A DNA stretch of 64,000 bases from Leuctra nigra (lineage: Eukaryota > Arthropoda > Insecta > Plecoptera > Leuctridae), in contig OW203771.1 of NCBI GenBank assembly GCA_934045905.1, positions 24,188,069 to 24,252,068 on the forward strand. The letters run 5' to 3'. The notes beneath the pieces are model-generated. The model made no database searches and was not told the origin of the DNA. It saw only the letters and a list, made by a program, of their open reading frames with translations. Of this stretch, positions 2,570-63,616 are shown one piece after another; the stretch's first letter is position 1, and the number at the start of each line of letters is the position of its first letter. The translations under genes and the position numbers were made by a program.

Positions 2570-3947
2570 GCTGGAGCTAGAATCCGGTAAACAGGCCACA
2601 GCCTAAACGGCTGAACCGATTGATCCCACATTTTTACCACGTGTGCACTTTTGGCGTCTGATTTAACCTTCACCCCAAGCATTTTTTGTGCCACCATTTT
2701 GAAACCGGAAGTTACGTCATTTCTCGTCAACGGCTGGACCGATTGGAACGAAAATTGCGTTAAACGATTCAGACGGTTATCTATATGCATTATCAGTAGC
2801 AAAAGACTAAACATTATGTTAAAGAAACCGGAAATGACGTAATGAAATTTGAAATACATCGATTGGCTTTTTGGCAACAAAGGTTGATCCGATTATTTTT
2901 AGATATTTATGTAACGTATGTTCTTTTGACGTCTCATGTGCTTGTTATAAAACCAACCGGAAGCCGCCATTTTGAAACCGGTAGAGGCATCATATCTCAA
3001 TAACGGCTAAATAGATTTCAACGAAACCAGCGCAAAACAATTTAGACGGTCAACTTTATGTATTATCATCAATAATATTTGCAGTTTCCTATACCTAAAC
3101 CGGAAATGACGTCACACATTTTAATAATCTCACAAATTTTTATTTTGATGCAATAAATATACTATTTGAGACAGCTTATAAAATTGTAATCATGTTTAAA
3201 ATCTACTTCAAGGGGTCAGAGATTTCAGCCGCCATTTTTAAACCGGAAGTAACGTCATATATCAAAAACTGGTAGACAAATCGGTATGAAACTAGCGCTA
3301 AATGATTCGGAAGGCCATCTCTATGGAATATGAACAGAACAAATAGAATTTTCCTATTTATGAGACGGGAAATGACGTCATTCAAATGTATAAATTATTA
3401 TAATTCCCTCCTATACAATAAATACATATTCAGAAAGCTGTAACAAGTTGGCCTATCTAGGTTAGAAAATTAACTTTAAAAATAATAATGTTTGCTTGAA
3501 ATAGGTTTAAAGAATGAACAAGCTTGTAGCATGGCATTCTTAGAGTCAAGGTTAACTGAACACAAAGTAATTAATTAGAATCATTATGTAAACTTACAAT
3601 CTTTAAAATTCAACAGCAATCAAAATATAGACAAAAATATAACGAGCAATCAAATAAGTTTAACAATGTGCAATTATATCAAGAAAGTGAGTGAATCCAT
3701 ATAAAAAGTATGTGACCTTACCTAAATTGTGATGTCACCACGTAATAACAAGTGAACCAGTCATTGTGATAACGCTACAAAACCAGTCAGCCAGACTAGT
3801 TTTCAGTGATTCCAAGAAAAGCATGGGCCTACGTGCAGAAAGAAAGTCGTTTCGCGGGCTTTAGAAATGACAGAATGCCTAAAAATAGCTACCACGTGTA
3901 CGAAACCAACCAATCAGATTCTTTGGAGGGAAAACGATGTCAGAGGG

Positions 3948-7899: not shown

Positions 7900-9490
7900 T
7901 GTGCCGCCATTTTTTAACCGGAAGTGACGTCATATCTTAAAAACGTCTGGACCGATTAGAACGAAATTAGCGCCATTCGATTTAGATGGTCATCTTTATG
8001 AAGTATCAATAACAAAAAATTATTTTCTTATTTTCTAAACCGGAAGTGACGTCATAAATACGCAATATTTCACTTATTTCAACAAATTATACTTAAAATA
8101 CGTACATAATTAACTTACATTGTAATATAGACAATACAATTTATAAATTCAAGGTTGCAGTGTTCTCGACCGCCATTTCTGAAACCGGAAGTGACGTCAT
8201 ATATCTAAAACGCCTGTACCGATTGCAACTGAACTAGCTCCTGCGTATTCATTCTACTATTTATTTGAAAAATCAATTGGGAAAAATGAATAAACAAATT
8301 AACGGTACCGGAAATGGCGGCAGGAACCACTTAATGAAACCGGAAGTGACGTCATATATTACAAACGGCATGACCGATTTTACGGAAATATAGGGATTAT
8401 GAATTCAGATGGTCGTTCATGAAGTATCAACTAGATAAAACTAGATTGTATTCTTATTACCTATACCGGAAATGACGTCATAAATATGATGATTGATGAA
8501 TTACGTCATAAATATGTTAAATGACATTAAATTCACCACTTTATACTTTTAAATAGATATTAGTAAACGTACATTGTGAATAATTATAAATTCAAGGTTG
8601 CAGTGTTCTCGGCCGCCATTTTTAAAAACGGAAGTGACGTCATGTATCAAAAACGGCTGTACTGATTGCAACCAAATTTGGGAAATGTGTAGGTCTAATA
8701 ATTATGAATTAAAGACGACATTATTTTCGGCCGCCAATGTTAAAACCGGAAGCGACGTCATATATCGAAAACGGCTGTACCGATTGGAACTAAATTGTGT
8801 TAATATGTAGGACATAAGAATATTGATTATGAATTTAAGACGACATTTTTTTCGGCCGCCATTGTTAAAACCGGAAGTGACGTCATATATCGAAAACGGC
8901 TGAACCAATTGCAACCAAATTTTAGAAATGTGTAGGACTAATAATTATGAATTAAAGACGACATTATTTTCGGCCGCCATTGTTAAAACCGGAAGTGACG
9001 TCATTTATCGAAAACGTCTGTACCGATTGCAACCAAATTATGCAATTATGTAGGACTTATTATTATGAATTCAAGACGACATTATTTTCCACCGCCATTT
9101 CAAAACCGGAAGTGACGTCATATATAGAAAACGGCTGTACCAATTGCAACCAAATTTTGGAAATGTGTAGGACTAATAATTATGAATTAAAGACGACATT
9201 ATTTTCGGCCGCCATTGTTAAAACATGAATTTACGTCATATATCGAAAACGGCTGTACCGATTGCAACCAAATTTTGGAAATATGTAGAACTAATAATTA
9301 TGAATTCAAGAAGACATTATTTTCGGCCGCCATTTCAAAACCGGAAGTGACGTTATATATCGAAAACGGCTAAACCGATTGTTATCAATTTATGTAATTT
9401 TGTAGGACTTCTAATTATGATTTCAAGAAGACATTATTTTCGGCCCCTATTTCAAAACCGGAAGTGACGTCAAATATCGAAAACGGCTGG
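7900..9490 (+). repeat. Tandem array of composite ETS/CRE-like motifs
   Basis: Around a dozen units of roughly 110-150 bp share aaaaccggaagtgacgtcat, atcgaaaacggctgtaccga and ttgcaaccaaatt. The core joins CCGGAAGT (ETS-type) to TGACGTCA (CRE/ATF-type). Confidence 0.85.
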
Positions 9491-10340
9491 ACCGATTGTA
9501 ACGAAACCTTAGCTATTTTTTTTTGGATAATCATTTTAATCTTTTACCAAACGCAACTTTTCTTAGTACCTATCCAAATCGGTTGAGGCGTATTTTTTTA
9601 AAGAAATTAGTCCTTGCTCGGACATGTGCTACAAGCTGTATGAATAAACTAACAAAAGAAGTGATATCCCAGAAAAAAAACACTCCGTGTAAAAACGGCA
9701 GCCAAGTCTCTTTACTTCAAAAAAATTCAACACTGAAAAGGAGTGATATCAAAAAAGGAGCCAAGTCAATGACATTTCCAAATATTTAATCGTATTTTTG
9801 AAATAAAAGAATAAACACCGAGAAATACTTTACAAAAGGACTTGGCGCATCGTTTTTTTAAAGACATTTTTCTATTCATAAGCATATGCCATTTATATAC
9901 ATTCGTAATTTAGAATTTTTAGAATAATAGGGACACAACTTTCAATTACATATTATACCTACACTCCTACTGTTCAATATTTTCTATTTGAATATGTACG
10001 CGATAAAACTTGTTGCCTATATTTGTAATAAATATACAATAGTTATCTTCATATTATTGTTTCGTGGTCAACATAAATAAGTCTCATGCGTTATACCTTC
10101 TCACAATGAAATACATTTCTATTAATCCACATTTTATAACAATACATTTCACAAAGTACACAGTGAAGTCACATTGTATTTCTATTAAAAAAATAACTTT
10201 ATACACTTGACACTTCAAAAATATATAATAGTGTTCCATAGATAGTTAGTAATTATTTGACAACGTTTCATCATTTCCTTTAGTCAAGATCAAATTATGA
10301 AAAGATTCCCTTCTAATATCACCATATTAACAGTAGGTCC

Positions 10341-13330: not shown

Positions 13331-13340
13331 CAAGACTCAC

Positions 13341-13508
13341 CAGCGTGACCGTTATTAGTGAGCGTGGTTGTTTTCGGCTTGGCGCCATATCCCGTAAACT
13401 TCAGTTTAGTTTTCTTCTCGGATTCACCCATTTTGTACAAAGAAAAGTCGACAGGCGACTGCTTGTCTCCACCACATGCGGGGTAGTTGTCCTTCCAATG
13501 GTCAGGCC
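13341..13508 (-). CDS. CA exon 3 (GPDHW ... QSPV ... NNGH)
   Basis: The exon is 168 nt, entering after ATTCCAG at 13509 and leaving at GCTG|GTGAGT at 13341/13340. It encodes 55 full codons with the CA blocks PDHWKDNYPACGG, QSPVDF, KFTGYG and NNGHA. Its first 56 bases are repeated about 37 times in the adjacent intron. The exon beyond base 56 is single-copy, which marks this copy as the functional one. Confidence 0.88.
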
Positions 13509-16500
13509 CTGGAATCATACACATCAGTGATAGCATGAACTGAGGCGACTGCTTGTCTCCACCACATGCGGGGTAGTTGTCCTTCCAATGGTCAGGCCCT
13601 GGAATCACACACATCAGTGATAGCATGAACTGAGGCGACTGCTTGTCTCCACCACATGCGGGGTAGTTGTCCTTCCAATGGTCAGGCCCTGGAATCACAC
13701 ACATCAGTGATAGCATGAACTGAGGCGACTGCTTGTCTCCACCACATGCGGGGTAGTTGTCCTTCCAATGTTTAGGCCCTGAAATCACACACATAGTGAT
13801 AGCATGAACTGAGGCGACTGCTTGTCTCCACCACATGCGGGGTAGTTGTCCTTCCAATGGTCAGGCCCTGGAATCACACACATCAGTGATAGCATGAACT
13901 GAGGCGACTGCTTGTCTCCACCACATGCGGGGTAGTTGTCCTTCCAATGGTCAGGCCCTGGAATCACACACATCAGTGAAAGCATGAACTGAGGCGACTG
14001 CTTGTCTCCACCACATGCGGGGTAGTTGTCCTTCCAATGGTCAGGCCCTGGAATCACACACATCAGTGATAGCATGAACTGAGGCGACTGCTTGTCTCCA
14101 CCACATGCGGGGTAGTTGTCCTTCCAATGGTCAGGCCCTGGAATCACACACATCAGTGATAGCATGAACTGAGGCGACTGCTTGTCTCCACCACATGCGG
14201 GGTAGTTGTCCTTCCAATAGTCAGGCCCTGGAATCACACACATCAGTGATAGCATGAACTGAGGCGACTGCTTGTCTCCACCACATGCGGGGTAGTTGTC
14301 CTTCCAATGGTCAGGCCCTGGAATCACACACATCAGTGATAGCATAAACTGAGGCGACTGCTTGTCTCCACCACATGCGGGGTAGTTGTCCTTCCAATGG
14401 TCAGGCCCTGGAATCACACACATCAGTGATAGCATGAACTGAGGCGACTGCTTGTCTCCACCACATGCGGGGTAGTTGTCCTTCCAATGGTCAGGCCCTG
14501 GAATCACACACATCAGTGATAGCATGAACTGAGGCGACTGCTTGTCTCCACCACATGCGGGGAGTTGTCCTTCCAATGGTCAGGCCCTGGAATCACACAC
14601 ATCAGTGATAGCATGAACTGAGGCGACTGCTTGTCTCCACCACATGCGGGGTAGTTGTCCTTCCAATGTTTAGGCCCTGAAATCACACACATAGTGATAG
14701 CATGAACTGAGGCGACTGCTTGTCTCCACCACATGCGGGGTAGTTGTCCTTCCAATGGTCAGGCCCTGGAATCACACACATCAGTGATAGCATGAACTGA
14801 GGCGACTGCTTGTCTCCACCACATGCGGGGTAGTTGTCCTTCCAATGGTCAGGCCCTGGAATCACACACATCAGTGAAAGCATGAACTGAGGCGACTGCT
14901 TGTCTCCACCACATGCGGGGTAGTTGTCCTTCCAATGGTCAGGCCCTGGAATCACACACATAGTGATAGCTTGAACTGAGGCGACTGCTTGTCTCCACCA
15001 CATGCGGGGTAGTTGTCCTTCCAATGGTCAGGCCCTGGAATCACACACATCAGTGATAGCATGAACTGAGGCGACTGCTTGTCTCCACCACATGCGGGGT
15101 AGTTGTCCTTCCAATGGTCAGGCCCTGGAATCACACACACCAGTGATAGCATGAACTGAGGCGACTGCTTGTCTCCACCACATGCGGGGTAGTTGTCCTT
15201 CCAATGGTCAGGCCCTGGAATCACACACATCAGTGATAGCATGAACTGAGGTGACTGCTTGTCTCCACCACATGCGGGGTAGTTGTCCTTCCAATGGTCA
15301 TGCCCTGGAATCACACACATCAGTGATAGCATGAACTGAGGTGACTGCTTGTCTCCACCACATGCGGGGTAGTTGTCCTTCCAATGGTCAGGCCCTGGAA
15401 TCACACACATCAGTGATAGCATGGACTGAGGCGACTGCTTGTCTCCACCACATGCGGGGTAGTTGTCCTTCCAATGGTCATGCCCTGGAATCACACACAT
15501 CAGTGATAGCATGAACTGAGGCGACTGCTTGTCTCCACCACATGCGGGGTAGTTGTCCTTCCAATGGTCAGGCCCTGGAATCACACACATCAGTGATAGC
15601 ATGAACTGAGGCGACTGCTTGTCTCCACCACATGCGGGGTAGTTGTCCTTCCAATGGTCATGCCCTGGAATCACACACATCAGTGATAGCATGAACTGAG
15701 GCGACTGCTTGTCTCCACCACATGCGGGGTAGTTGTCCTTCCAATGGTCAGGCCCTGGAATCACACACATAAGTGATAGCATGGACTGAGGCGACTGCTT
15801 GTCTCCACCACATGCGGGGTAGTTGTCCTTCCAATGGTCATGCCCTGGAATCACACACATCAGTGATAGCATGAACTGAGGTGACTGCTTGTCTCCACCA
15901 CATGCGGGGTAGTTGTCCTTCCAATGTTTAGGCCCTGGAATCACACACATCAGTGATAGCATGAACTGAGGCGACTGCTTGTCTCCACCCCATGCGGGGT
16001 AGTTGTCCTTCCAATGGTCATGCCCTGGAATCACACACATCAGTGATAGCATGAACTGAGGTGACTGCTTGTCTCCACCACATGCGGGGTAGTTGTCCTT
16101 CCAATGGTCAGGCCCTGGAATCACACACATCAGTGATAGCATGGACTGAGGCGACTGCTTGTCTCCACCACATCCGGGGTAGTTGTCCTTCCAATGGTCA
16201 GGCCCTGGAATCACACACATCAGTGATAGCATGAACTGAGGCGACTGCTTGTCTCCACCACATGCGGGGTAGTTGTCCTTCCAATGGTCAGGCCCTGGAA
16301 TCACACACATCAGTGATAGCATGAACTGAGGCGACTGCTTGTCTCCACCCCATGCGGGGTAGTTGTCCTTCCAATGGTCAGGCCCTGGAATCACACACAT
16401 CAGTGATAGCATGAACTGAGGCGACTGCTTGTCTCCACCACATGCGGGGTAGTTGTCCTTCCAATGGTCAGGCCCTGGAATCACACACATCAGTGATAGC

Positions 16501-19500
16501 ATGAACTGAGGCGACTGCTTGTCTCCACCACATGCGGGGTAGTTGTCCTTCCAATGGTCAGGCCCTGGAATCACACACATCAGTGATAGCATGAACTGAG
16601 GCGACTGCTTGTCTCCACCACATGCGGGGTAGTTGTCCTTCCAATGGTCAGGCCCTGGAATCACACACATCAGTGATAGCATGGACTGAGGCGACTGCTT
16701 GTCTCCACCACATGCGGGGTAGTTGTCCTTCCAATGGTCAGGCCCTGGAATCACTCACATCAGTGATAGCATGAACTGAGGCGACTGCTTGTCTCCACCA
16801 CATGCGGGGTAGTTGTACTTCCAATAGTATAATCTGCTCACCATTTTATATCACGTGATTGTGGTATAATCTGCTTACCATGTTATATCACGTGATTTTG
16901 TTATAATTTGCTTACCATGTTGTATCACGTGATTGTGGTATAATCTGCTTACCATGCAATATCACGTGATTGTGGTATAGCCTGCTTACCATGTTGTATC
17001 ACGTGATTGTGGTATAGCCTGCTTACCATGCTATATCACGTGATTGTGGTATAATCTGCTTACCATGCTATATCACGTGATTGTGGTATAATCTCTTTAC
17101 CATGCTATACCACGTGATTGTGGTATAATCTGCTTACCATGTTATATCATGTGATTGTGGTATAATCTGCTTACCATGTTGTATCACGTGATTGTGGTAT
17201 AATCTGCTTACCATGTTGTATCACGTTATTGTGGTATAATCTGCTTACCATGCTATATCACGTGATTGTGGTACAATCTGCTTACCATGCTATATCACGT
17301 GATTGTGGTATAGCCTGCTTACCATGTTGTATCACGTTATTGTGGTATAATCTGCTTACCATGCTATATCATGTGATTGTGGTATAGCCTGCTTACCATG
17401 TTGAATCACGTGATTGTGGTATAGCCTGCTTACCATTCTATATCACGTGATTGGGGTATAATCTGCTTACCATGTTATATCACGTGATTGTGGTATAATC
17501 TGTATACCATGTTATATCACGTGATTGTGGTATTATATGCTTACCATGTTGTATCACGTGATTGTGGTATAATCTGCTTACCATGTTATATCACGTGATT
17601 GTGGTATAATCTGCTTACCATGTTATATCACGTGATCATGTTGTATCTGCTTACCATGTTATATCACGTGATTGTGGTATAATCTGCTTACCATGCATTA
17701 TCACGTGATTGTGGTATAATCTGCTTACCATGTTATATCCCGTGATTGTGGTATAATCTGCTTACCATGCTATATCACGTGATTATGGTATAATCTGCTT
17801 ACCATGCTATATCACGTGATTGTGGTATAATCTGCTTACCATGTTGTATCACGGGATTGTGGTATAATCTGCTTACCATGTTATATCACGTGATTGTGGT
17901 ATAATCTGCTTACCATGTTATATCACGTGATCATGTTGTATCTGCTTACCATGTTATATCACGTGATTGTGGTATAATCTGCTTACCATGCATTATCACG
18001 TGATTGTGGTATAATCTGCTTACCATGTTATATCCCGTGATTGTGGTATAATCTGCTTACCATGCTATATCACGTGATTATGGTATAATCTGCTTACCAT
18101 GCTATATCACGTGATTGTGGTATAATCTGCTTACCATGTTGTATCACGGGATTGTGGTATAATCTGCTTACCATGTTATATCACGTGATTGTGGTATAAT
18201 CTGCTTACCATGTTATATCACGTGATCATGTTGTATCTGCTTACCATGTTATATCACGTGATTGTGGTATAATCTGCTTACCATGCATTATCACGTGATT
18301 GTGGTATAATCTGCTTACCATGTTATATCCCGTGATTGTGGTATAATCTGCTTACCATGCTATATCACGTGATTATGGTATAATCTGCTTACCATGCTAT
18401 ATCACGTGATTGTGGAATAATCTTATCACCATGCTATATCACGTGATTGTGGTATAATCTGCTTACCATGTTGTATCACGGGATTGTGGTACAATCTGCT
18501 TACCATGTTGTATTACGGGATTGTGGTATAATCTGCTTACCATGTTATATCACGTGATTGTGGTATAATCTGCTTACCATGTTATATCATGAGATTGTGG
18601 TATAATCTGCTTACCATGTTATATCACGTGATTGTGGTATAATCTGCTTACCATGTTGTATCACGGGATTGTGGTATAATCTGCTTACCATGTTATATCA
18701 CGTGATTGTGGTATAATCTGCTTTCCATGCTATATCACGTGATTGTGGTATAATCTGCTTACCATGTTGTATCACGGGATTGTGGTATAATCTGCTTACC
18801 ATGTTGTATCACGTGATTGTGGTACAATCTGCTTACCATGTTGTATCACGGGATTGTGGTATAATCTGCTTACCATGTTATATCATGTGATTGTGGTATA
18901 ATCTGCTTACCATGTTGTATCACGGGATTGTGGTATAATCTGCTTACCATTGTCTCCATCGTAGCCCCAGTCAGACGCAGCATTGACGCAGCTCAGACCT
19001 GAGACAAAACAAAACACTGAGCTCAATGTGAGCTGAGAACATCACTTTTTCTTCGTGTCTTTGTTTGTGTTTCGTCTGCACTGTCCAGGTCTTACAGATC
19101 TAGAAGACATTTTGAACACACACTAATGTCACACAATTTTATTGGTCACGTGCTCATTACTAGGAAAACGCTCAGTGAAACGCGTTGATGAGCGAGCACG
19201 GGTACGTGCAAATTCTCGAACCGGAAATGCGTACATAACGCACAGAAAACATAAAACATCCATATTGAATTGATTATGATCACTCAATCAACATAAAGTT
19301 TTAGTAGGGGGCCAAGTGGTATCCCGTAGGATCGTCGTGAAGGGAAGGTGCCACCTATCTCACTAAATGCATATATAGGTCCAAAACCTAAAAAAATTTG
19401 GTGCCACCCCAGACCCCTGGCTGGGCTGGGGGCTGGGGGCTAAATTTATTCATTCCTGTACCCTACACGATAAGACATAGAAATGTATTTTAAAAAATTT

Positions 19501-35077: not shown

Positions 35078-35246
35078 TGTAGTATTGTGTAGGGGAAGGG
35101 AACATTTACAGTTGGCAGCCGTGGTGGCGCTGCTAACTTCATTGTGCTGTGGGACCATAGACTAGAGAGCCAATCCGTCAAGCAGTCAATAAAGAACCAC
35201 TGAACCTACCAGTTGTCTATTCTCAGAACCCTGACTTCCTACGACA
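35078..35246 (+). repeat. 5' LTR
   Basis: It starts TGTAGTATTG and ends CTACGACA, so the termini are TG...CA. A polyadenylation signal AATAAA lies at 35188-35193. It is identical to the 3' LTR over all 169 bases. Confidence 0.95.
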
Positions 35247-35248
35247 AA

Positions 35249-35266
35249 TGGCGACGAGGATGAGAT
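35249..35266 (+). other. Primer-binding site
   Basis: TGGCGACGAGGATGAGAT starts two bases after the 5' LTR. TGG complements the CCA end of a tRNA. The priming tRNA was not identified. Confidence 0.6.
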
Positions 35267-35308
35267 CAAAATTGTGAGTAATTGAATCGGTCATCATCGG
35301 GGAGCAGG

Positions 35309-38300
35309 ATGTCTACTCTTAGATTTAGAGAGTTTAAACCAGAAGAAGAGGAGGTCGATTTATATTTATTGCAATTCAAGCATTACTTAAAGGCCTGGGG
35401 ACTGGTTGATGAGGAGGACAAAGTGTCCAGTTTTATCGTGAATGTCGGGACGAAACATGTGGCCTTGCTTCAGGATATCATATCGCCCTTGGCTCTGGAT
35501 AATCAAACATATGAATATTTAACTACTTTATTAGCCGAGCATTACAGGCCGAAGAGGATATTAGTAGCGGAAAGGTATCGATTTCACTGCAGAATGCAAC
35601 ATCCTGGTGAAACAATCAAAGACTATGTGGTAGCTCTACGCCATTTAGCATCAACATGTAAATTCGGCCTATTCTTGAACGAAGCCATCAGAGACAGGTT
35701 AGTGTGTGGCATGTCTAACGAGGTTATAAGAAGAGATCTTCTCAGGGAAGAAAGGGACTTAACACAAACGGTAGAGAGGGCTAGTACCATTGAACTAGCC
35801 GAGAAGCAAGGGTCTGCTTTATCACAAGCTTCAGCTACAGCTTCAGTAAATTTACCGCTCGTGTCGGAAGTCAATATTCTTTCTAAGGGGCCGCGCTGCC
35901 CTCCGAAAAAGACCATGCTATGTTACCGATGTCAGTCGTGCCAACACGAGTCGCAGAGTTGTCCCTATAAAAATTTCAAATGTCATAAGTGCCAGAAAGT
36001 TGGGCACATTGCGAAGGCCTGTCGACAGAAAATGGGGAAGAGAGGAACAGTACAAATGGTTGAAGAGGAGGTTCTCTCGGAGGAAGAGGAAGACATTGGA
36101 TTCAACACTGTGAATTACGCCAAACGGAATGCTGGTAAGACAACGGCATATACCGTACAGTTAGATAAAGAAGATCAACTGGTATCTTTGGTTCTGGATA
36201 CGGGCGCGGGAGTGTCCGTGATCACGGAAACGACGTATGCAAAACGTTTTGGGCATCTGCCGATCCAGCCCGTGGAACTGCGTCTTCGAACCTGGGATCG
36301 AGGTCCGCTCAAGGTTATGGGACAGGTATGGGTCCGAGTACAACATGGGGGGCAGTTACATCGCCTACCCTTGGTGGTGGTCGACACTAAAGGACAGCCA
36401 GGACCTCCGCTTCTGGGTAGGACGTGGTTAGAAACACTACATCTGGATTGGAGCAGCATGATCAAGAAGGAAACTGCTGGAAAGGAAGTACCACGAGACC
36501 ACATCGATCACGTTACGGAACCAGGCGGAACGAAGAGGATTCTGGAGCAACGCATCTCGGAGCTGCAGGTAAAATATGCACCAGTGTTTGAAAAGGGGGT
36601 AGGAAAGATTGAAGGGAAAAGCGTGAGCCTGCATCTCAAAGATAATGCTATTCCCAAGTTTTGCAAGAAAAGACCGGTGCCATATGCATTACAATCCTTG
36701 GTAGATGCAGAAATAGATAGACTAGTGAGCAATAAGTTGTGGCTGCCAGTAAATAGAAGTGAATGGGCCACACCCTTAGTTGTAGTTCCCAAGAATGGCG
36801 GGGTGCGAATCTGTTCGGATTACAAGGTAACCTTGAATCCTGTCTTGGATGTCGATCATTACCCCCTCCCCACGACTGAAGAGCTTTTGCATAGTGTGGC
36901 TGGTTCTAAGATATTCACAGTTCTAGATTTGTCGTCGGCCTACCAACAACTGGAGGTGGAGCCCCAGTCACAACAACGCTTGACGGTAACTACTCACCGG
37001 GGCCTGTTTCGTCCAACGCGCCTACCGTATGGAATTGCCTCAGGACCGGCCCTATTTCAACAAGTGATGGATGATATTCTGCAAGGCATTCCATTAGTGG
37101 GGTGCTACATAGACGACGTGCTTATTGGAGGGCGGAACATGGAAGAGGCGGCGAGGAACTTGGAGGAGGTGCTCAAGCGTTTGAAGGAACACAATATTCG
37201 AGTGAGTAAGGAGAAATGTCAATTTCTGCAAACATCAGTCAAGTATTTGGGATTTTCTATTGATCAAGAGGGAATGCACCCAACAGAAGACTTAGTGGAA
37301 GTCATTAATATGGCTCCAGAACCTCAGGACAAGACGCAACTCAAGGCTTATTTGGGCTTGTTAAACTTCTACGGGAAATTCATTCCGAACTGCTCAGGGC
37401 AGTTAGTGCCATTCTATAATTTGACTAAAGAGGGGGTGCTCTGGAATTGGACGAGGGAGCATGCAGCACTTTTCAAAGAGACTAAGAAATGGATAACGGC
37501 AGCCAATCTGTTAGTGTACTACAACCCCGGTTTGCCATTAATAGTCACCTGTGACGCGTCAGCGTATGGAGTGGGGGCCATCTTGTCACACCCCAATGAA
37601 AATGGGGGAGAAAATCCCATTGCATTTGCATCAAAAACATTAAATGCTGCAGAGAAGAACTATTCACAGATTCATAAAGAGGCCCTGGCCATTATATTTG
37701 CCGTTAAGAAATTCCACAAATTTCTACTGGGAAGGAAATTTACTTTGTACACCGACCATCAGCCTTTGACTACAATATTGGGGGCAAAACACGGGATACC
37801 TCCACTGGCAGCTGCTAGGTTACAGCGATGGGCAGATCTGCTAGCACCGTACCAATATGAAATCAAATACCGGAAAGGAAAGGACTTGGCAAATGCCGAT
37901 GCATTGTCGCGATTACCGTTGCCAACAGAGGAGCCAGTAGAAAAACCACGGAACTATTTCTCACCGGAAAAACATTTGCAAACAATCATCGCACAACTCG
38001 ATAATCGACCGGATCAGCCGTTAACAGCCAAGGAAATTGGAAAAGCGACAAATAAAGATGGTGTGCTCACACGAGTCAAACAGTTTGTGCTTCAAGGTTG
38101 GCCAAGGAATTCGGCAGAAGAGCTTCTGCCTTTTGCGAGGAGGAAGGACGAACTGAGCGAAGACTGCGACTGCCTTACCTGGGGAAATAGGGTGGTAATT
38201 CCAGAGTGTCTACAAGAAAAACTGCTGCAACTGCTGCACGAGGGCCATCCTGGGTGCACCCGGATGACATTGTTGGCGAGGAGTGTGGTGTGGTGGCCGC

Positions 38301-39442
38301 AGATGGAAGAGCACATTGAGGCCAAGGTGGCGGCCTGTCACATTTGTCAGAGTGTCCAGACATCAGCCAAACCTGCTTTGTTTCAACCATGGCCCTGGCC
38401 ACAGAGGAAGTGGGAAAGAATTCACGTTGATTTTGCCACCGACACAGTTACGAACTCCGGAAAGGTATTACTATGCATAATTGACAGCCACTCTAAGTGG
38501 ATCGAGGTGTTCCCAATGAGTTCCATGACAACCTCCCGAACTATTGATAAATTACGGACCCTGTTTGCATCCTATGGGTTGCCGGAGGTGTTGGTGTCAG
38601 ACAACGGTACAAATTTTACAAGCGAGGAGTTTGAAACGTATCTTCAGGAGAACCGTATCAAACACATTCTGTCACCACCGTATCATCCGGCCTCAAATGG
38701 AGCCTGTGAGAGGGTAGTCCAAATCGTAAAAAAAGGTTTAAAGAAACTAGTCTTAGAAGAAGAAAGTGGTGAAAGCGAACCTCGCTCCTTGCAACATACA
38801 TTGGACAAGCTGTTAACCGCCTACAGATGCACCCCACACTCCATAACCAAACGCACACCTGCGGAATTATTCCTGGGTCGAACGACCCGAACCTTGTTGT
38901 CATTAATACGACCCAGTTTGGCAGAATACATGGGGAGTCGACAACAGACAGAAAAGGCAAGATTGGACCAGCATCGGCAGAATCGAGAATTCATGGTGGG
39001 ACAACTAGTGTGGGTCAGAAGTGTACGGGGGGAGAAAACCAATTGGTTCTCAGGGGAAATAAAGCAGATTTTGGGAAGGAATACTTACAGGGTACAAGTG
39101 GGCATGGAACGTCGAGTCTGTCATGCGGATCATTTGCGAAGAAGGGTGTCCACGGGGGGCGAGCCAGAGGGGAACCATTCCACATTACCCGAGAGGATCC
39201 CGGACAGGAGTTTCCGACAACCCGGGACGGAACCAACACCGAGCCCAGGGCCTGGGCCTTCTCAAGGATCTCCAGCTACCGGCCGTGGTGCTGCCGGACT
39301 GTCGTCTGCTAGTCCTGCATCACAGAGGACGTCTCCGTGGGCCCGGCCGCCTTCGGGTTCTACTTCTCCGACAGCGGGTGACCATGGAGAGGAGGGTCGA
39401 CCTCAGCGACAGCGACGCCGTCCAGAAATTCTGGATTTATAA
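35309..39442 (+). CDS. Gag-Pol polyprotein of the Ty3-type element
   Basis: The frame encodes 1377 residues from the first ATG (an upstream TTG at 35282 is in frame but not a likely start). The Gag-like region is residues 1-200. Two CCHC zinc knuckles lie at 205-218 and 225-238. The protease has DTG at 297-299. The reverse transcriptase spans about 455-640 with catalytic Asp540 and YIDD at 600-603. RNase H begins with Asp749 (TCDAS). The integrase has zinc-binding H977, H980, C1010 and C1013 and catalytic D1041, D1098 and E1134 (D-D-35-E spacing). The tail from about 1290 is Pro/Ser/Gly-rich. No stop or frameshift interrupts it and all catalytic residues are present, so the copy may be autonomous. 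It resembles proteins often labelled K02A2.6-like in arthropods. Confidence 0.95.
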   Translation: MSTLRFREFKPEEEEVDLYLLQFKHYLKAWGLVDEEDKVSSFIVNVGTKHVALLQDIISPLALDNQTYEYLTTLLAEHYRPKRILVAERYRFHCRMQHPGETIKDYVVALRHLASTCKFGLFLNEAIRDRLVCGMSNEVIRRDLLREERDLTQTVERASTIELAEKQGSALSQASATASVNLPLVSEVNILSKGPRCPPKKTMLCYRCQSCQHESQSCPYKNFKCHKCQKVGHIAKACRQKMGKRGTVQMVEEEVLSEEEEDIGFNTVNYAKRNAGKTTAYTVQLDKEDQLVSLVLDTGAGVSVITETTYAKRFGHLPIQPVELRLRTWDRGPLKVMGQVWVRVQHGGQLHRLPLVVVDTKGQPGPPLLGRTWLETLHLDWSSMIKKETAGKEVPRDHIDHVTEPGGTKRILEQRISELQVKYAPVFEKGVGKIEGKSVSLHLKDNAIPKFCKKRPVPYALQSLVDAEIDRLVSNKLWLPVNRSEWATPLVVVPKNGGVRICSDYKVTLNPVLDVDHYPLPTTEELLHSVAGSKIFTVLDLSSAYQQLEVEPQSQQRLTVTTHRGLFRPTRLPYGIASGPALFQQVMDDILQGIPLVGCYIDDVLIGGRNMEEAARNLEEVLKRLKEHNIRVSKEKCQFLQTSVKYLGFSIDQEGMHPTEDLVEVINMAPEPQDKTQLKAYLGLLNFYGKFIPNCSGQLVPFYNLTKEGVLWNWTREHAALFKETKKWITAANLLVYYNPGLPLIVTCDASAYGVGAILSHPNENGGENPIAFASKTLNAAEKNYSQIHKEALAIIFAVKKFHKFLLGRKFTLYTDHQPLTTILGAKHGIPPLAAARLQRWADLLAPYQYEIKYRKGKDLANADALSRLPLPTEEPVEKPRNYFSPEKHLQTIIAQLDNRPDQPLTAKEIGKATNKDGVLTRVKQFVLQGWPRNSAEELLPFARRKDELSEDCDCLTWGNRVVIPECLQEKLLQLLHEGHPGCTRMTLLARSVVWWPQMEEHIEAKVAACHICQSVQTSAKPALFQPWPWPQRKWERIHVDFATDTVTNSGKVLLCIIDSHSKWIEVFPMSSMTTSRTIDKLRTLFASYGLPEVLVSDNGTNFTSEEFETYLQENRIKHILSPPYHPASNGACERVVQIVKKGLKKLVLEEESGESEPRSLQHTLDKLLTAYRCTPHSITKRTPAELFLGRTTRTLLSLIRPSLAEYMGSRQQTEKARLDQHRQNREFMVGQLVWVRSVRGEKTNWFSGEIKQILGRNTYRVQVGMERRVCHADHLRRRVSTGGEPEGNHSTLPERIPDRSFRQPGTEPTPSPGPGPSQGSPATGRGAAGLSSASPASQRTSPWARPPSGSTSPTAGDHGEEGRPQRQRRRPEILDL

Positions 39443-39533
39443 TTGAATTGAGAAAATTGTGTTTGAATATATTTTTGTATGTTTCCTGATATTGTATTCT
39501 TGTGATAATTTTATAATTGTGGTATTAAAACAT

Positions 39534-39547
39534 GGAAGAGAAAGGAG
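39534..39547 (+). other. Polypurine tract
   Basis: GGAAGAGAAAGGAG directly abuts the 3' LTR, as expected for the plus-strand primer. Confidence 0.85.
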
Positions 39548-39716
39548 TGTAGTATTGTGTAGGGGAAGGGAACATTTACAGTTGGCAGCCGTGGTGGCGC
39601 TGCTAACTTCATTGTGCTGTGGGACCATAGACTAGAGAGCCAATCCGTCAAGCAGTCAATAAAGAACCACTGAACCTACCAGTTGTCTATTCTCAGAACC
39701 CTGACTTCCTACGACA
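39548..39716 (+). repeat. 3' LTR
   Basis: It is identical to the 5' LTR and followed by the duplicated target ccaac. AATAAA is at 39658-39663. Confidence 0.95.
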
Positions 39717-43113: not shown

Positions 43114-47228
<4,115 letters not shown>

Positions 47229-47380
47229 TCCACTCACAGGTCGAGTGGCGTTGTTTGACTTGCGCCAAACCTTCCTCAACAGTTCAGTGCACATCATCTC
47301 GTGCCGTTGGTCCGATGTCTGTTAGCCAACCTTCCACTACGACGAATTGCTCTCGTTTATTGTATTACAACAGTCTTACC

Positions 47381-47431
47381 TGTTGCTACCAACAATGACA
47401 CAATTGGTTGCTACCAACAATGACACAATGT
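47381..47431 (-). promoter_or_regulatory. Conserved upstream motif of Gr gene A
   Basis: Two copies of gttgctaccaacaatgac occur in tandem about 24 bases apart. The same pair lies upstream of gene B at 59519-59570. Conservation of spacing suggests promoter or 5' UTR function, or a duplication too recent to have decayed. Confidence 0.45.
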
Positions 47432-56876: not shown

Positions 56877-59426
56877 AAAAATCTTTTTATACTGTAACCT
56901 GAGGATGGCTAGTGTTATCTAGCTGAAACGTTGTTTGAAATAAAATAATTAAAACACGATGCATAACCCAGAAGAATTATTCACATTAAATAATTACGCA
57001 CGTGAAAACATTAAAACAAATGTAATATATATATATATATATATATATATGTATTCTTTGATGCTTTCGAAACCGCTCATTATAATAATCAATATTTTTC
57101 GGTAATGCTTCGTTTATTCCACAGTTAAATATACAACGTTTTACACCTTGATTTATACCTGTTGATTTTCAGAGGTCAGTGTTTCTTGTATCCAAAAGGC
57201 TGTGGCCGTTTGGTTTCAAGTTAATTTTGTTTCAAATGTCACTTTTCCTGACTTTTCATCCTGAATTTCATCATTTTATATGATCTATTGCTGTGTTTTT
57301 TAGTTTAATAATTTGTAATATACCTGAAGAAGCCAGGCAGGAGCCTGGCGAAACGTTGTATATTTAACTGTGGAATAAACGAAGCATTACCGAAAAATAT
57401 TGATTATTATATATATATGTGTGAAACATGATTCTTGCTGATAACTTCAGGGGGCTTATTCTCGAAAAAGTTATCACGTCATAAGTTATGAATCATAAAA
57501 AACTCACAATATTAACATGGTGAGAGAAAGGACAAACCTCCTTATGAATCATAACTTGGGAGTTATGACGTGATAACATTTTCGAGAATAAACCCCCAGA
57601 TAGCTTGACATGAATAATCATCAACAAATTGAAAAATTTACCTCCTCTGAGATTCTAGCCCAGATACCCTGAATTATGTGCTTTATTGAAGCACTCATGC
57701 ATTTATTCCTGAAAAAAGTGATAGTAAGTATAGGTATAAGAAAAAAATAAGGAGAAAATCGTTATCAGAAAATAGAATCTAAGCCTGCTGAAGCCTGGAT
57801 TCCTAATAGTTGATAGCAATTTTCTCGCTGGTTTCTTCTCACCACCCTCACTTATTTCAGGAAGGGCTCCAGAACAAAGACCCTGAATAATACAAAATAG
57901 AGTACCTCCACTTTTGCTGAATATGTCGCAGTGGTTTTAAATCTGTTGAACATGTGTCGGCCAGTCTTGATGGACTGCAAATTGACAGTGATTAGACATT
58001 TGGCTTGTTCACGCAAAACTATTGTAGATGTCGTTGCTGTTCCAAAAGTTTTAAGAGCCAATCAAAATGCAGAGAAGGGTAATCTACCCTATATATTTTT
58101 CATATTTATTTCTATTTTATATTTATTTTGAATAACCTTAAAAAACTCAATTAGGTATTCTTCATTACCATATATTATAATTATTATGTGAGGGGAGAGG
58201 GCTGCACAAAAGACATGGGTCCGGATTAGCAGTACAATGTAATGAATTATAATCATTTCTAACCACAACGCAAAATGCAAAATAAAACATTAAAACTCCT
58301 TACTAATTTGACGTCTATTATGATATTTTTGATAACAAATACGTGATTAATTGGATTCAACCATTATCAAATTAAAAAAATTAAATAATTAAAAATACTC
58401 CGATTAGCCACGATATGTCCGTTGTCCTGTTATGGCTACAGAAGCTACCAAAAATATAATATTTGGAAAACGTTCTTGGCTTACCTCATCGGTCAGTGAC
58501 TGACAAGCCAAGCAGATCAAGAGCATGGAGATGGAGAACCAAAGAGCATAAAACAATTCAATTATAAGTGTATTAATATAATAGGCTGATAAATACCAGT
58601 ATGCCGACCACGTAAAAAACAGAATTTCCAGACTGTATGTAGCAGTGAATTGGAGAAGAGACAGGGACAAGAAGTATTTTAGATGATCGGAGGCATCGAA
58701 GATAGCCGAGTAAATTGACTCGTATTCTCGCGACAAAGATTCAACCACAAACGATTGATTTTGTTCCTTAAGATGATCATTGAGAAGACGTAGACGTTGG
58801 GTGACACTGTAGACCGCAGCAAGGACGAAACAAAGGTAGGCAGTATTGGCTAGACGAGGGACAGTAAGGCAAATGTAGGTTGTGAGGGAATTGTAATCCT
58901 TTGGCTGATTTGGGGCGTAGTTATCGAAGATAATGATCGATAGAATGATACCGAATAGTACAAAGAGTGTGAGGGTGACATTTCGGCTATTCTTCCCATG
59001 CGGTACTTTGATGCCCAAACGACTCAAAGACAAATCAATTCCGTACAGTTCTTCAAAGAAAGATATCATCTTACTTTGCCGTTGTCCTTGCAGACTCAAT
59101 ACAACTGGAATTGAAATTCCAAGTGATAGACGTAATAAAATTAAGCCAGCAACATGTATGGAAAAGTATTGAAATTCCCTCGATTTGAAATAATTCCAAA
59201 CAGTCATGGACCACAACAATGCATAGAGAATTGCGATAGCCGCGCTGTTGACGGCTCCGACACGAGACACCTGGAACTGGACGCGTCTGCCGGTGTTGGT
59301 CGCCGTCATGCTGAAGAGTCCCAACATCTTCATCACGTAGAACAACGGCAGCGCGCTGGCGGACACGTCTTTGTGTCGGAACATCGCCAGGAAGCCGGGT
59401 TGCTCGTCTCTGACGCGGTCGTTCAT
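52806..59426 (-). CDS. Gustatory receptor gene B (three exons seen, last exon missing)
   Basis: Exons are 59426-58485 (314 codons), 57974-57906 (23) and 52895-52806 (30), with lengths and phases identical to gene A. The protein has the same seven-helix layout. The amino-terminal 60 residues and the block LQGQRQ...GIKVPHGKN...RNVTLT are nearly the same, while TM1-TM2 and TM3-TM6 are diverged. Exon 3 (FAVQVN, ISAAGFFNLDLNLILS) ends at donor GTACGT. No TY-motif exon was found between 52805 and gene A. It may have been lost, may be unrecognised, or gene B may splice to the exon at 43161-43114. The first frame-compatible ATG is MNDR at 59426; the frame is open further upstream without an ATG. Confidence 0.8.
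53664..53736 (+). tRNA. tRNA-like sequence, copy 1 (probably SINE-derived)
   Basis: It folds as a cloverleaf: D stem GCTC/GAGC, anticodon stem TCTGA/TCGGA, loop CTGGATA, T stem GTGGG/CCCAC, and a 6-bp acceptor stem with a mismatched first pair. Box A TAGCTCAGCTGG and box B GGTTCGAGTCC are perfect. The loop would give anticodon GGA (Ser), but the variable arm is short, unlike tRNA-Ser. A tRNA-derived retroposon is more likely than a functional gene. Confidence 0.5.
53966..54038 (+). tRNA. tRNA-like sequence, copy 2 (probably SINE-derived)
   Basis: It is identical to copy 1 over the tRNA-like part and shares the flanks gaactgcctcgatagctc and aaaatcttttcacattgcag. It sits inside the same target-duplicated insertion. 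Confidence 0.5.
55764..55990. mobile_element. Fragment related to the 48248 Helitron
   Basis: Blocks catcgtagggtactgacccc, tttcgcaaaccacc and agacgagtgcg match 48430-48560. Confidence 0.45.
56630..56780. mobile_element. CGATGCGC family terminal fragment
   Basis: It runs aaaacactccgtgtaaaaat ... acttggcgcatcgtttggc, one arm of the palindromic module found at 9665. Confidence 0.5.
56829..56873. repeat. (AT)n microsatellite
   Basis: An uninterrupted AT run of about 45 bp. Shorter runs at 57028-57050 and 57408-57418 flank the neighbouring element. Confidence 0.95.
56899..56929 (+). ncRNA. Hammerhead-like core 1 (tentative)
   Basis: CTGAGGA, a stem GGCTAG/CTAGCT and GAAAC are arranged as in a hammerhead ribozyme core (CUGANGA-stem II-GAAA). 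One extra base separates CTGAGGA from the stem, so self-cleavage is doubtful. An AATAAA follows shortly after. Confidence 0.35.
57082..57410. mobile_element. Penelope-like or MITE-type element with 61-bp inverted ends
   Basis: The arms 57082-57142 and 57350-57410 are near-perfect complements (aatatttttcggtaatgctt). The element is bounded by AT microsatellite. The right arm follows a hammerhead-like segment, a layout known from Penelope-like element ends, hence the tentative class. Confidence 0.5.
57324..57354 (+). ncRNA. Hammerhead-like core 2 (tentative)
   Basis: CTGAAGA, one A, a perfect 7-bp stem GCCAGGC/GCCTGGC with loop AGGA, then GAAAC. This matches the hammerhead core apart from the extra A. 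It may be a degenerate ribozyme of a Penelope-like element. Confidence 0.4.
57450..57597. mobile_element. MITE with ~35-bp terminal inverted repeats
   Basis: The ends GGGGGCTTATTCTCGAAAAA and ...TTTTCGAGAATAAACCCCC are complementary over about 35 bases, including gttatcacgtcataa. The element is 148 bp. It lies in Gr gene B intron 1 or 2 territory, just left of exon 2. Confidence 0.7.
57906..57974 (-). CDS. Gr gene B exon 2
   Basis: The acceptor tcaatttgcag precedes 23 codons starting SIKTGRHMFNRFK and ending AKVE, then donor GTACTC. It aligns end to end with gene A exon 2. Confidence 0.78.
58485..59426 (-). CDS. Gr gene B exon 1
   Basis: It encodes 314 residues with six hydrophobic segments and ends CLACQSLTDE at donor GTAAGC. 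It is the same length as gene A exon 1 to the codon. Confidence 0.88.
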
Positions 59427-59518
59427 TCCACTCACAGGTCGAGTGGAGTGGTTTGACTTGCGCCAAACCTTCCACAACGACGAATTTTCTCGTGTATTTC
59501 ATTACAGCAGTCTGCCCT

Positions 59519-59570
59519 GTTGCTACCAACAATGACACAATTGGTTGCCACCAACAATGACTCAATGTTT
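59519..59570 (-). promoter_or_regulatory. Conserved upstream motif of Gr gene B
   Basis: It holds the tandem gttgctaccaacaatgac / gttgccaccaacaatgac pair, about 95-145 bases before the ATG and homologous to the gene A upstream block. Confidence 0.45.
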
Positions 59571-60444: not shown

Positions 60445-62475
60445 ATCCCAGAAAAAAACACTCCGTGTAAAAAAGGCAGCCAAGTCTCTTTACTTTAAAA
60501 AAATTCAACACCGAAAAGGAGTGATATCAAAAAAGAAGCAAAGTCAATGACATTTCCAAATATTTAATCGTATCTTTGAAATAAAAGTATAAACACCGAA
60601 AAATACTTTACAAAAGGACTTGGCGCATCGTTTTTTTAAAGACATCATTCTATCCTATAAGTGGAAAGAAATTTACAATTAGGTACATTTTCCTCTTTTT
60701 TTTAGAGCCAGTATCTATGAATCAAGCTACTTTTAGTAATGGCTATTTTATAGTTTTGTCAATGGCGATAGAAGAAAGATTTCATGTTGTAATAGATAAG
60801 TAATGTAAGGGTGGAAGAATTAAATAACAATTGGAAGTGGGCTCATTTATATTTTTATAGCACTGTTAATATGGTGATATTAGAAGGGTATGTTTTCATA
60901 ATTTGATCTTGATTGAGGGAAATCATGAAACGTTGTAAAATAATTACTAACTATCTATGGAACACTATTATATATTTTTGAAGTGTCAAGTGTATAAAGT
61001 TAAAAAATTTAAAGAAATTCCATGTGCCGTCTCTGTGTACTTTGTGAAATGTATTGTTATAAAATGCGGATTAATAGAAATGTATTTCATGATGCGAAGG
61101 TATAACGCATGAGACTTAATTATGTTGACCACGAAACAATATTACGAAGATAACTATTGTGTATTTATAGAAAACATAGGCAACAAGTTTCATAGCGTAT
61201 ATATTCAAATAGAAAATATTTTACAGTAGGTATGTATAATATGTAATTGAAAGATGTGTCCCTATTATTCTAAAAATTCTAAATGACGGTTGTATATAAA
61301 TGGCATATGCTTATGAATAGAAAAATGTCTTTAAAAAAACGATGCGCCAAGTCCTTTTGTAAAGTATTTCTCGGTGTTTATACTTTTATTTCAAAGATAC
61401 GATTAAATATTTGGAAATGTCATTGACTTGGCTTCTTTTTTGATATCACTCCTTTTCGGTGTTGAATTTTTTTAAAGTAAAGAGACTTGGCTGCCTTTTT
61501 TACACGGAGTGTTTTTTTCTGGGATATCACTTCTTTTGTTAGTTTATTCATACAGCTTGTAGCACATGTCCTACCAAGGACTAATTTCTTTAAAAAAATA
61601 CGCCTCAACCGATTTGGTTAGTAAGAAAAGTTGCATTTGGTACAAGCTTAAAATGATTATCCAAGAAGAATAGTCTAAGTTTCGTTACAATCTGTCCAGA
61701 CGTTTTCGATATCTGACTTCACTTCCAGTTTAAAAAATGGCGCTCAATAATACTGCCGCCTTGAATTCATAAAAGTGCAACATAATTGCATAATTAAGCT
61801 GCAATCTCGGCAGTTGTTTTCGAAATATGACGTCACTTCCGGTTTTGAAATAGCGGCCGAAAATAATGTCATCTTGAATCCATAAATATAAGGGCTATAT
61901 AATTACATAATTTAGTTGCAATCGGTACATCTGTTTTCTATAAATGACGTCACTTCCTGTTTTAAATATGGCGGCCAGAAATAATGTTGTCTTGAATTCA
62001 TAATTATAAGTCCAACATAATTAGATAATTTAGTTGCAATCGGTACAGCCGTTTTCGACATATGACGTCACTTTCGGTTTTAACAATGGCGGTCGAAAAT
62101 AATGTCGTCTTTAATTCAAAAATATAAGTCCTACATAATTACATAATTTAGTTGCAATCGGTACATCCGTTTTTGATATATGACGTCACTTCCGGTTTAA
62201 ACAATGGCGGCCAAAAATAATGTCGTCTTGAATTCATAATTATTAGTCCTACACAATTCCAAAATTTGGTTACAATCGATACAGCCGTTTTCGATATATG
62301 ACGTCACTTCCGGTTTTTGCAAATGGCGGCCGAGTACACCGCAATCTTGAATTTATAATTATTCACAATGTATGTTTCTAAATATCTATTTAAAAGTATA
62401 GATTGGGGAATTTAGTGTCATTTAGCATATTAATGGCGTCATTTAGCATATTTATGACGTCATTTCCGGTATAGG
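60445..62475 (-). mobile_element. CTCCAC/CGATGCGC family copy, inverted and 5'-truncated
   Basis: The TIR-like module 60447-61526 (arms of ~205 bp) is an uninterrupted version of 9665-11452. The segment 61526-61700 equals the complement of 9490-9664. The array 61700-62470 carries complements of ccggaagtgacgtcatat. It is cut at 62476 by another cccagaaaaaacactccg end. Confidence 0.6.
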
Positions 62476-63416: not shown

Positions 63417-63616
63417 NNNNNNNNNNNNNNNNNNNNNNNNNNNNNNNNNNNNNNNNNNNNNNNNNNNNNNNNNNNNNNNNNNNNNNNNNNNNNNNNNNNN
63501 NNNNNNNNNNNNNNNNNNNNNNNNNNNNNNNNNNNNNNNNNNNNNNNNNNNNNNNNNNNNNNNNNNNNNNNNNNNNNNNNNNNNNNNNNNNNNNNNNNNN
63601 NNNNNNNNNNNNNNNN
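63417..63616. other. Assembly gap (200 N)
   Basis: Exactly 200 Ns, probably a scaffolding placeholder. Confidence 1.

Follow-up and report, generated by a model that had tools for sequence, protein, structure and literature searches.

The second intron of an alpha-carbonic anhydrase (CA) gene in the plecopteran Leuctra nigra consists of two tandem repeat arrays, one built on the donor splice junction of the intron and the other on its acceptor junction. The gene lies on the minus strand of a 64,000-nucleotide stretch of contig OW203771.1 (C10:24188069-24252068 in the assembly that we searched, which holds 536,196,549 bases in 144 contigs); we refer to this whole stretch as the window. We consider it likely, taking structure and mechanism together, that this is an old CA intron carrying a pair of arrays that meet directly and resemble the "mirages" of lancelets, and that duplications of its splice junctions were tolerated because exon definition takes the outermost copies, after which they were amplified and homogenized between loci.

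Every splice site was assigned from reading frame and consensus. When joined, exons 2 and 3 form a single frame, LSCVNAASDWGYDGDN/GPDHWKDNYPACGGDKQSPVDF...TNNGHA (here and below, a slash marks the splice junction), which reads as the start of an alpha-carbonic anhydrase and matches Pfam PF00194 at 2.4e-13. Exons 4 and 5 were located just outside the window, and the gene model of the original prediction, a reading of the window's letters that had called the model strong because the joined exons recover a canonical CA start, was borne out. We inspected the upstream sequence by eye for exon 1 and identified none. The best solved structures matched by the product are those of carbonic anhydrase XII, and its best match in the protein collection, at 40% identity, is not a close relative. 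In all six exon 4 sequences read from the array-bearing clade (L020 1296-1560, L009, L015, L016, L026, and L027), FHWG is preceded by L-I, M-R, or M-K in place of H-F (HELIFHWG in the window gene, YEMRFHWG and similar sequences in paralogs), so that the histidine that we take to be the first zinc ligand is replaced; it is kept in L023 and L024. Because the first of the three presumed zinc-binding histidines is missing, the array-bearing clade probably comprises CA-related, noncatalytic proteins, judging from sequence.

Intron 2 is 5,439 bases long, and Tandem Repeats Finder (TRF) resolved it into two arrays plus one base. Thus, as originally proposed, the intron has no unique sequence and each repeat unit holds a splice junction. 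The proposed meeting point at 16825/16826 needs a small correction: one array stops at 16825 and the other at 16827, leaving an odd base, 16826, between them. The 37-bp unit joins 3 exon bases (ATG) to 34 intron bases, the 90-bp copy at 13453-13542 continues into the real exon 3, and the 90-bp copy next to the junction of the two arrays is incomplete and lacks the acceptor. The tandem units of this intron therefore cross the exon-intron boundary, the feature by which a mirage is recognized.

Most units have kept their splice signals. The donor GT is present in 57 of the 58 rows of the 37-bp array (1 real site and 56 decoys), the exact sequence ATGGTAAGC is present in 53 of the 58, and 52 of the 56 decoy donors are the same as the real donor across nine bases. 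The acceptor AG is present in 37 of the 38 rows of the 90-bp array (1 real site and 36 decoys), and a single base, ten positions upstream, distinguishes the real acceptor from the consensus of the decoys. These row counts come close to the figures first put forward, about 57 decoy donors and 37 decoy acceptors.

TABLE 1 Features of the window CA gene, its two-array intron, and other junction-spanning units
Feature	Position	Strand	Details
CA exon 2 (51 nt)	18998-18948	minus	From translation; ends in GACAATG, phase 1; CAG at 19001-18999 before, GT at 18947 after
Real 5' splice site of intron 2, GTAAGC	18942..18947	minus	
37-bp donor-junction array, unit ATG/GTAAGCAGATTATACCACAATCACGTGATATAAC	16827..18950	minus	TRF: 57.5 copies, 91% matches; 58 rows
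Fusion point of the arrays, one odd base	16826..16826		Both arrays broken mid-unit
90-bp acceptor-junction array, unit of 34 intron bases and 56 exon bases	13453..16825	minus	TRF: 37.5 copies, 97% matches; 38 rows
Three nearest decoy acceptors, exon starts 13598, 13688, 13778	13598..13778	minus	Sole decoy acceptors that would keep the frame open into exon 4
Real 3' splice site of intron 2, CAG (TTCCAG precedes exon 3)	13509..13511	minus	
CA exon 3 (168 nt)	13341..13508	minus	First 56 nt are part of the 90-bp unit
5' splice site of intron 3, GTGAGT	13335..13340	minus	Its acceptor lies outside the window, in L020, with a 62-bp junction array
Exon 4 of the window gene	C10:24186534-24186773	minus	Just outside the window; open, canonical splice sites
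Exon 5 of the window gene	C10:24184744-24185010	minus	Just outside the window; open, canonical splice sites
62-bp unit, acceptor of exon 4	Intron 3 of the window gene and four paralogs: L009, L014/L026, L016, L027 (L011 gene)		37 + 25 bases
39-bp unit, donor of exon 4	L015		21 + 18 bases; 24.7 copies
167-bp unit, donor	L023		135 + 32 bases; 10.8 copies
110-bp unit, acceptor	L024		42 + 68 bases; 27.9 copies
128-bp unit, donor	L024		100 + 28 bases; 3.8 copies; exact donor uncertain, GT lost in last copy
98-bp unit, strong donor GGATTCAAG/GTAAGA	Cuticle gene L061		14 copies at 99%

The intron is older than the arrays that fill it. The same exon 3 edge occurs without a 90-bp array in the paralogs L015, L016, and L018, and the same exon 2 edge occurs without a 37-bp array in L015 and L019. 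Furthermore, the 37-bp unit begins at the ancestral donor, since the array-less L015 has an identical exon end and donor start (GACAATGGTAAGCATTATC). As in intron gain by tandem duplication, exon sequence has here been duplicated together with splice signals; however, the host intron sits at the same place in paralogs that lack the array (L015, with none in intron 2, and L016 and L018, with no 90-bp array), rather than being missing from relatives without the duplication. We therefore rejected intron gain and regard the arrays as growth of an old intron.

The arrays recur well beyond the window. We examined paralog stretches of up to 10 kb per locus, and the match counts from genome-wide searches with the repeat unit are lower bounds. 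A query made of exon 2 and the first unit found at least 10 further loci among the matches listed, on C6, C8, C10, C12, and C13, and these five chromosome-sized contigs carry paralogs with 37-, 90-, and 62-bp units. TRF detected a 37-bp array of 13 to 219 copies at 8 of the 11 exon 2 loci, the window included; roughly two degenerate units are present in L014 and not one in L015 or L019, so that copy number among paralogs spans none to over 200. Exon 3 could be read at 8 of the 11 loci and carries a 90-bp array at four of them (the window, L010/L025, L011, and L014). The two arrays are nearly in contact in L014 and 0.9 kb apart in L011, and in L009 the 37-bp array stops no more than eight bases short of exon 3. 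The 1.3 kb between the arrays of L010 matches dispersed sequence of L015 and L018 at 82 to 87% identity, and remnants of 37-bp units are present on its other side; for these reasons we rejected it as ancestral intron and conclude that the L010 arrays probably adjoined before an insertion.

Units at different loci are strikingly alike. The 37-, 90-, and 62-bp consensus sequences are identical at all loci, except for a single base on C13 and three bases in L027, whose array is short. Between the window (C10) and L014 (C12), 90-bp units differ by 1.7% on average, with an Fst of 0.04; among loci, Fst ranged from 0.04 to 0.13 for the 90-bp array, from −0.03 to 0.28 for the 37-bp array, and from 0.02 to 0.10 for the 62-bp array (0.36 to 0.54 against the three L027 units). 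Unit distance between loci is thus about the same as that within loci, and locus structure is weak. For the window gene and L014, the introns that can be aligned show differences at 8/113 and at 7/48 bases (15/161 in all), and alignable intron fragments over all pairs differ by 0% (49 bases before exon 2, window against L011) to 17%, mostly 6 to 15%, a rough yardstick that understates divergence because it comes from BLAST fragments, some of them short and one lying in a dispersed repeat. Unit distance did not decrease with nearness in any of the six arrays tested, apart from periodic dips (at eight units in the window 37-bp array and at five in the L010 90-bp array). Because distance does not drop with nearness, block amplification or wide homogenization fits better than stepwise slippage.

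These results alter the claim, made in the original prediction, that each array grew from its own junction. Derivation from a junction is supported for the 37-bp unit by the ancestral donor in L015, but the claim was too local, as the same units occur in paralogs on five contigs. Given the common consensus and the weak locus structure, the arrays were either inherited with the paralogs or exchanged among them and need not have grown in this intron.

The likeness of the 90-bp units extends to the coding bases that they contain. Between the window gene and L014, exon 3 differs at 1 of the 56 bases that belong to the array and at 41 of the 112 bases that follow (Fisher 9e-8). Among the four loci with a 90-bp array, pairwise differences number 1 to 3 in the first 56 bases and 17 to 41 in the remaining 107 to 112, a contrast that was significant in six of six pairs (Fisher 9e-8 to 0.007), although the pairs are not independent. 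In the array-less L015, L016, and L018 (three pairs), both parts of the exon have diverged alike (11 to 17 of 56 against 21 to 26 of 104 to 109). L009, which currently has no 90-bp array, also shows 1 to 3 differences in the first 56 bases. Thus, the opening 56 coding bases of exon 3 are frozen, dragged along with the 90-bp array.

How might such arrays have arisen? In the mechanism that we favor, each splice junction would have been caught in a short tandem duplication and then amplified into a satellite array. Since the intron is long, the spliceosome would define exons rather than introns, choosing the donor that lies closest to the acceptor of exon 2 and the acceptor that lies closest to the donor of exon 3, which are the outermost copies. 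A junction duplication would be harmless because the outermost copy would still be chosen; inner copies would stay silent, or the mis-spliced mRNA that they give would be sent to decay. The arrays could then lengthen and shorten by unequal exchange or block amplification and pass between paralogs by ectopic conversion or reinsertion. An outermost-site rule in long introns is described in the accessible text of a published study (PMC9225289).

Several points weigh against this reading. In the same accessible text, competing 3' sites of exons flanked by long introns show a reduced upstream preference and no reversal (PMC9225289), which makes the acceptor side the weaker half of the argument; exon definition may not suffice there. 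The 37-bp unit holds only three exon bases. Several paralogs (L009, L010/L025, L012, and L013) look damaged, so the arrays may not always be harmless. Divergence is low outside the arrays too: the 49 bases before exon 2 are 96 to 100% alike between the window and L011 or L015. Neutral tolerance alone leaves unexplained why so many arrays sit on junctions, and that the outermost sites are the ones used is something we infer from sequence.

The frequency of arrays on junctions raises the idea that a process linked to transcription or splicing seeds tandem duplications at exon-intron boundaries, through R-loops, paused polymerase, spliceosome-protected DNA, or RNA-templated repair. Such a process is compatible with tolerance by exon definition, and both may hold, but we think it rather unlikely on present evidence. 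A PF00194 scan of the genome gave 144 exon matches, from which we estimate about 28 CA genes. Among the loci read, we found eight distinct junction-spanning units, seven in CA genes (37, 39, 62, 90, 110, 128, and 167 bp) and one in a cuticle-protein gene (98 bp), so that intron 2 of the window gene is one case among several and the other units range from 39 to 167 bp. The 62-bp array of L016 was seen only to end at the start of the exon 4 match. Under a simple model of uniform placement applied to the paralog stretches, with units of at least 25 bp in at least 3 copies and classified by hand, 3 of the 5 other array families (90, 62, 39, 99, and 93 bp) have their terminal unit on a known junction (p ~7e-4). 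The two off-junction families are the 99-bp arrays in pseudogene-like CA loci on C13 (L012 4282-7914 and L013 3592-4856), in which no junction was found, and the 93-bp array of L022, for which no tie to a junction was found. The model is crude: it leaves out the 167-, 110-, 128-, and 98-bp arrays as well as the AT-rich arrays of L017 and L018 (periods of 8, 16, 24, and 40 of one short motif), which lie on no known junction. Moreover, the count of units is biased, since repeated exon pieces were what drew attention to the 167-, 110-, and 98-bp arrays, and survival of harmless duplications could yield part of the pattern. Placement of arrays at junctions beyond chance is therefore suggestive, not decisive.

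Scans of other gene families bear on the same question. Among 149 matches to the cuticle-protein family PF00379, 19 were pieces of two arrays, in evenly spaced runs of 13 and 6 rows; the former is the 98-bp array of L061. At C2:10149249-10150158, six cuticle-domain fragments (profile 3-44) spaced at 155 bp lie upstream of a full domain, probably a further junction array. No evenly spaced run of exon pieces was present among the matches listed out of 93 for myosin, 98 for P450, and 161 for trypsin, which speaks against a junction-seeding process. Counting arrays of at least 25-bp units and at least 3 copies irrespective of junctions, TRF found one in 20 myosin loci (67,416 bases) and one in 12 P450 loci (45,195 bases), the latter also having another of 2.9 copies. 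A 30-bp array linked to the myosin locus L045 was considered as a junction array and rejected once the orientation of the locus was taken into account. At C1:19366964-19370357, one segment of the myosin head (profile 376-436) is present in seven copies at uneven intervals, in the manner of the mutually exclusive exons clustered in arthropod muscle myosin genes. Since the cuticle gene has an array and the listed myosin, P450, and trypsin matches show no such run, the habit extends beyond CA genes but is uneven. We put forward only tentatively the broader proposal that splice junctions are favored birthplaces of satellites in this genome and that the arrays move or convert between chromosomes, overwrite the adjoining exon, and dictate protein sequence in several paralogs.

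The damage seen in some paralogs could instead mean that the gene family is dying and that the arrays mark unselected pseudogenes. L009 has no AG before exon 3, L010/L025 has a stop in the real exon 3, and L012 and L013 each have a GC donor and a frameshift. (In L009, the last 37-bp unit before exon 3, at 3040-3090, reads GTAAGCAG/AT; by eye, the CAG there, used as an acceptor, would keep the CA frame where the normal AG is gone.) However, exons 2 to 5 of the window gene are open with canonical splice sites, exon 3 is open in L011, L014, L015, L016, and L018, and the array-bearing genes of other CA lineages, like the cuticle gene, retain recognizable open exons. We regard a dying family as an improbable explanation.

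It is more doubtful still that preexisting satellites or mobile repeats were inserted beside the exons and carry splice signals by chance. The 37-bp unit has just three exon bases, and the arrays occur on several contigs, as a mobile repeat would, but the remaining units each contain between 21 and 135 bases of the exon to which they belong. When two 37-bp units were searched against the whole genome, at least 212 matches in at least 10 candidate places were returned, and all the rows listed are at CA exon 2 loci. The L027 62-bp array shares one of its three substitutions (GATGTG) with the exon 4 of L027 itself, and, as described above, the donor start of the 37-bp unit is present in an array-less paralog.

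A coding or regulated role, in which upstream decoy acceptors would be used to add 30-residue repeats (90 bp being 30 codons), is very unlikely. The 90-bp unit is free of stops in the frame of exon 3, a 600-residue open frame crosses the array, and the frame is preserved with the three nearest decoy acceptors; beyond the third decoy, however, it is broken by four single-base deletions. Among 209 units, the exon and intron parts have evolved alike (p 0.55), as have codon position 3 and the other positions (p 0.65), and just two of the seven CA unit lengths are multiples of 3. Only 4 of the 2109 (57 x 37) donor-acceptor pairs give an open frame into exon 4; all four use the real donor, joined to the real acceptor or to any of the three nearest decoys. 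None of the 56 decoy donors is open into exon 4 when paired with the real acceptor, and the remaining combinations are predicted from sequence to meet an early stop or to enter exon 4 in the wrong frame. With the frame broken and no coding-type constraint over the units, we rejected the arrays as coding tandem repeats.

That the arrays are an assembly artefact, with repeats collapsed or falsely extended, is scarcely credible: long arrays are hard to assemble, the copy numbers come from one assembly, and L018 has a 200-N gap, but many loci carry arrays that are independent and that differ in unit, in length (2 to 219 copies), and in variants, and there is no N in or near the window arrays, the window's sole N run being at 63417-63616.

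The window contains several other features. A young gypsy-type long terminal repeat retrotransposon at 35078-39716 has a single 1386-residue open frame (reverse transcriptase, RNase H, and integrase) flanked by terminal repeats of 169 bp that are identical to each other. Two 7tm_7 (gustatory-type) chemoreceptor genes, related to one another and with long open frames, lie on the minus strand at 46278-47318 and 58404-59495, each preceded by a two-copy 25-bp repeat, GTTGC(T/C)ACCAACAATGACACAATTG (47382-47429 and 59519-59566); a search of gustatory-receptor proteins returned no match. A 118-bp satellite forms two arrays in opposite orientation, about 81 to 85% alike, at 8609-9506 and 61680-62331 and is tied to no known gene. 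A GAGAAG hexamer microsatellite of about 74 copies at 44859-45302 has long open frames on both strands.

The closest described counterparts of the CA arrays are the mirages of lancelets, minisatellite-like tandem repeats across the 5' or 3' exon-intron boundaries of Adh3, globin, and PGBD5 genes; in the accessible parts of the two reports, their units evolve in concert and splicing is said to be undisturbed (PMC3087553, PMC3902484). The statement in the original prediction that no such case was known was thus too broad, as junction-spanning minisatellites had been described, although in the open-access literature searched we found no report of one intron filled by long arrays from both ends. 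As in lancelets, the L. nigra units cross the boundary and carry the splice site, and at 37 and 90 bp they are minisatellites, within the published range of 10 to 160 bp (PMC3087553, accessible part). The differences lie in scale and setting, which is what is new relative to mirages. Where the accessible text gives lancelet copy numbers (globins BflGb6 and BflGb9 and PGBD5), they are 2 to 7, whereas the arrays here have 58 and 38 rows. PGBD5 of lancelets has two arrays, at exon 3 and at intron 4, apparently not at one intron as far as that text goes, whereas here both fill a single intron. Unlike mirages, the arrays here recur at many junctions and are common to several contigs together with coding bases. 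The mirage cases in those sources are cephalochordate and ours is arthropod; taxon is no structural criterion, and we therefore use the term "mirage-like." In the open-access literature, where most subscription papers are absent, our searches revealed no intron outside lancelets with long arrays at both of its junctions.

Two other systems are comparable in part. Internal tandem repeats at exon-intron boundaries occur in young paralogs within human segmental duplications; in the accessible part of that report, their units average 30 bp x 4 and are linked either to new introns or to exon repeats that have been retained (PMC2812944), whereas in L. nigra long arrays occupy old introns. Dual-specific AG/GT splice sites occur in tandem-repeat genes such as UBC, each unit of which has a splice signal (PMC10809524, accessible part). 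The donors of our 39-, 167-, and 98-bp units are likewise AG/GT, but the 37-, 90-, 62-, and 110-bp junctions are not, and the repeats here are intronic rather than monomer coding.

The genome itself bears the marks of an arthropod. The best named matches of a myosin V copy are from a scorpion, a spider, an isopod, a krill, and a spittlebug, at 56 to 62% identity, and the 149 PF00379 matches point to cuticle proteins, an arthropod hallmark; on these grounds we rejected a lancelet origin, which the mirage reports had brought to mind. In an arthropod, the arrays would extend the range of mirage-like repeats from lancelets to arthropods and tie the birth of satellites to the structure of genes. 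As the 56 frozen bases of exon 3 suggest, homogenization of a satellite can restrain coding divergence between genes on different chromosomes. Finally, the 57 donors of this single intron are nearly identical to one another, as are its 37 acceptors, which makes it a natural experiment in site choice by the spliceosome. Because a rule of outermost sites and a rule of first-transcribed sites predict different mRNAs, the intron offers a natural test of exon definition against first-come pairing.

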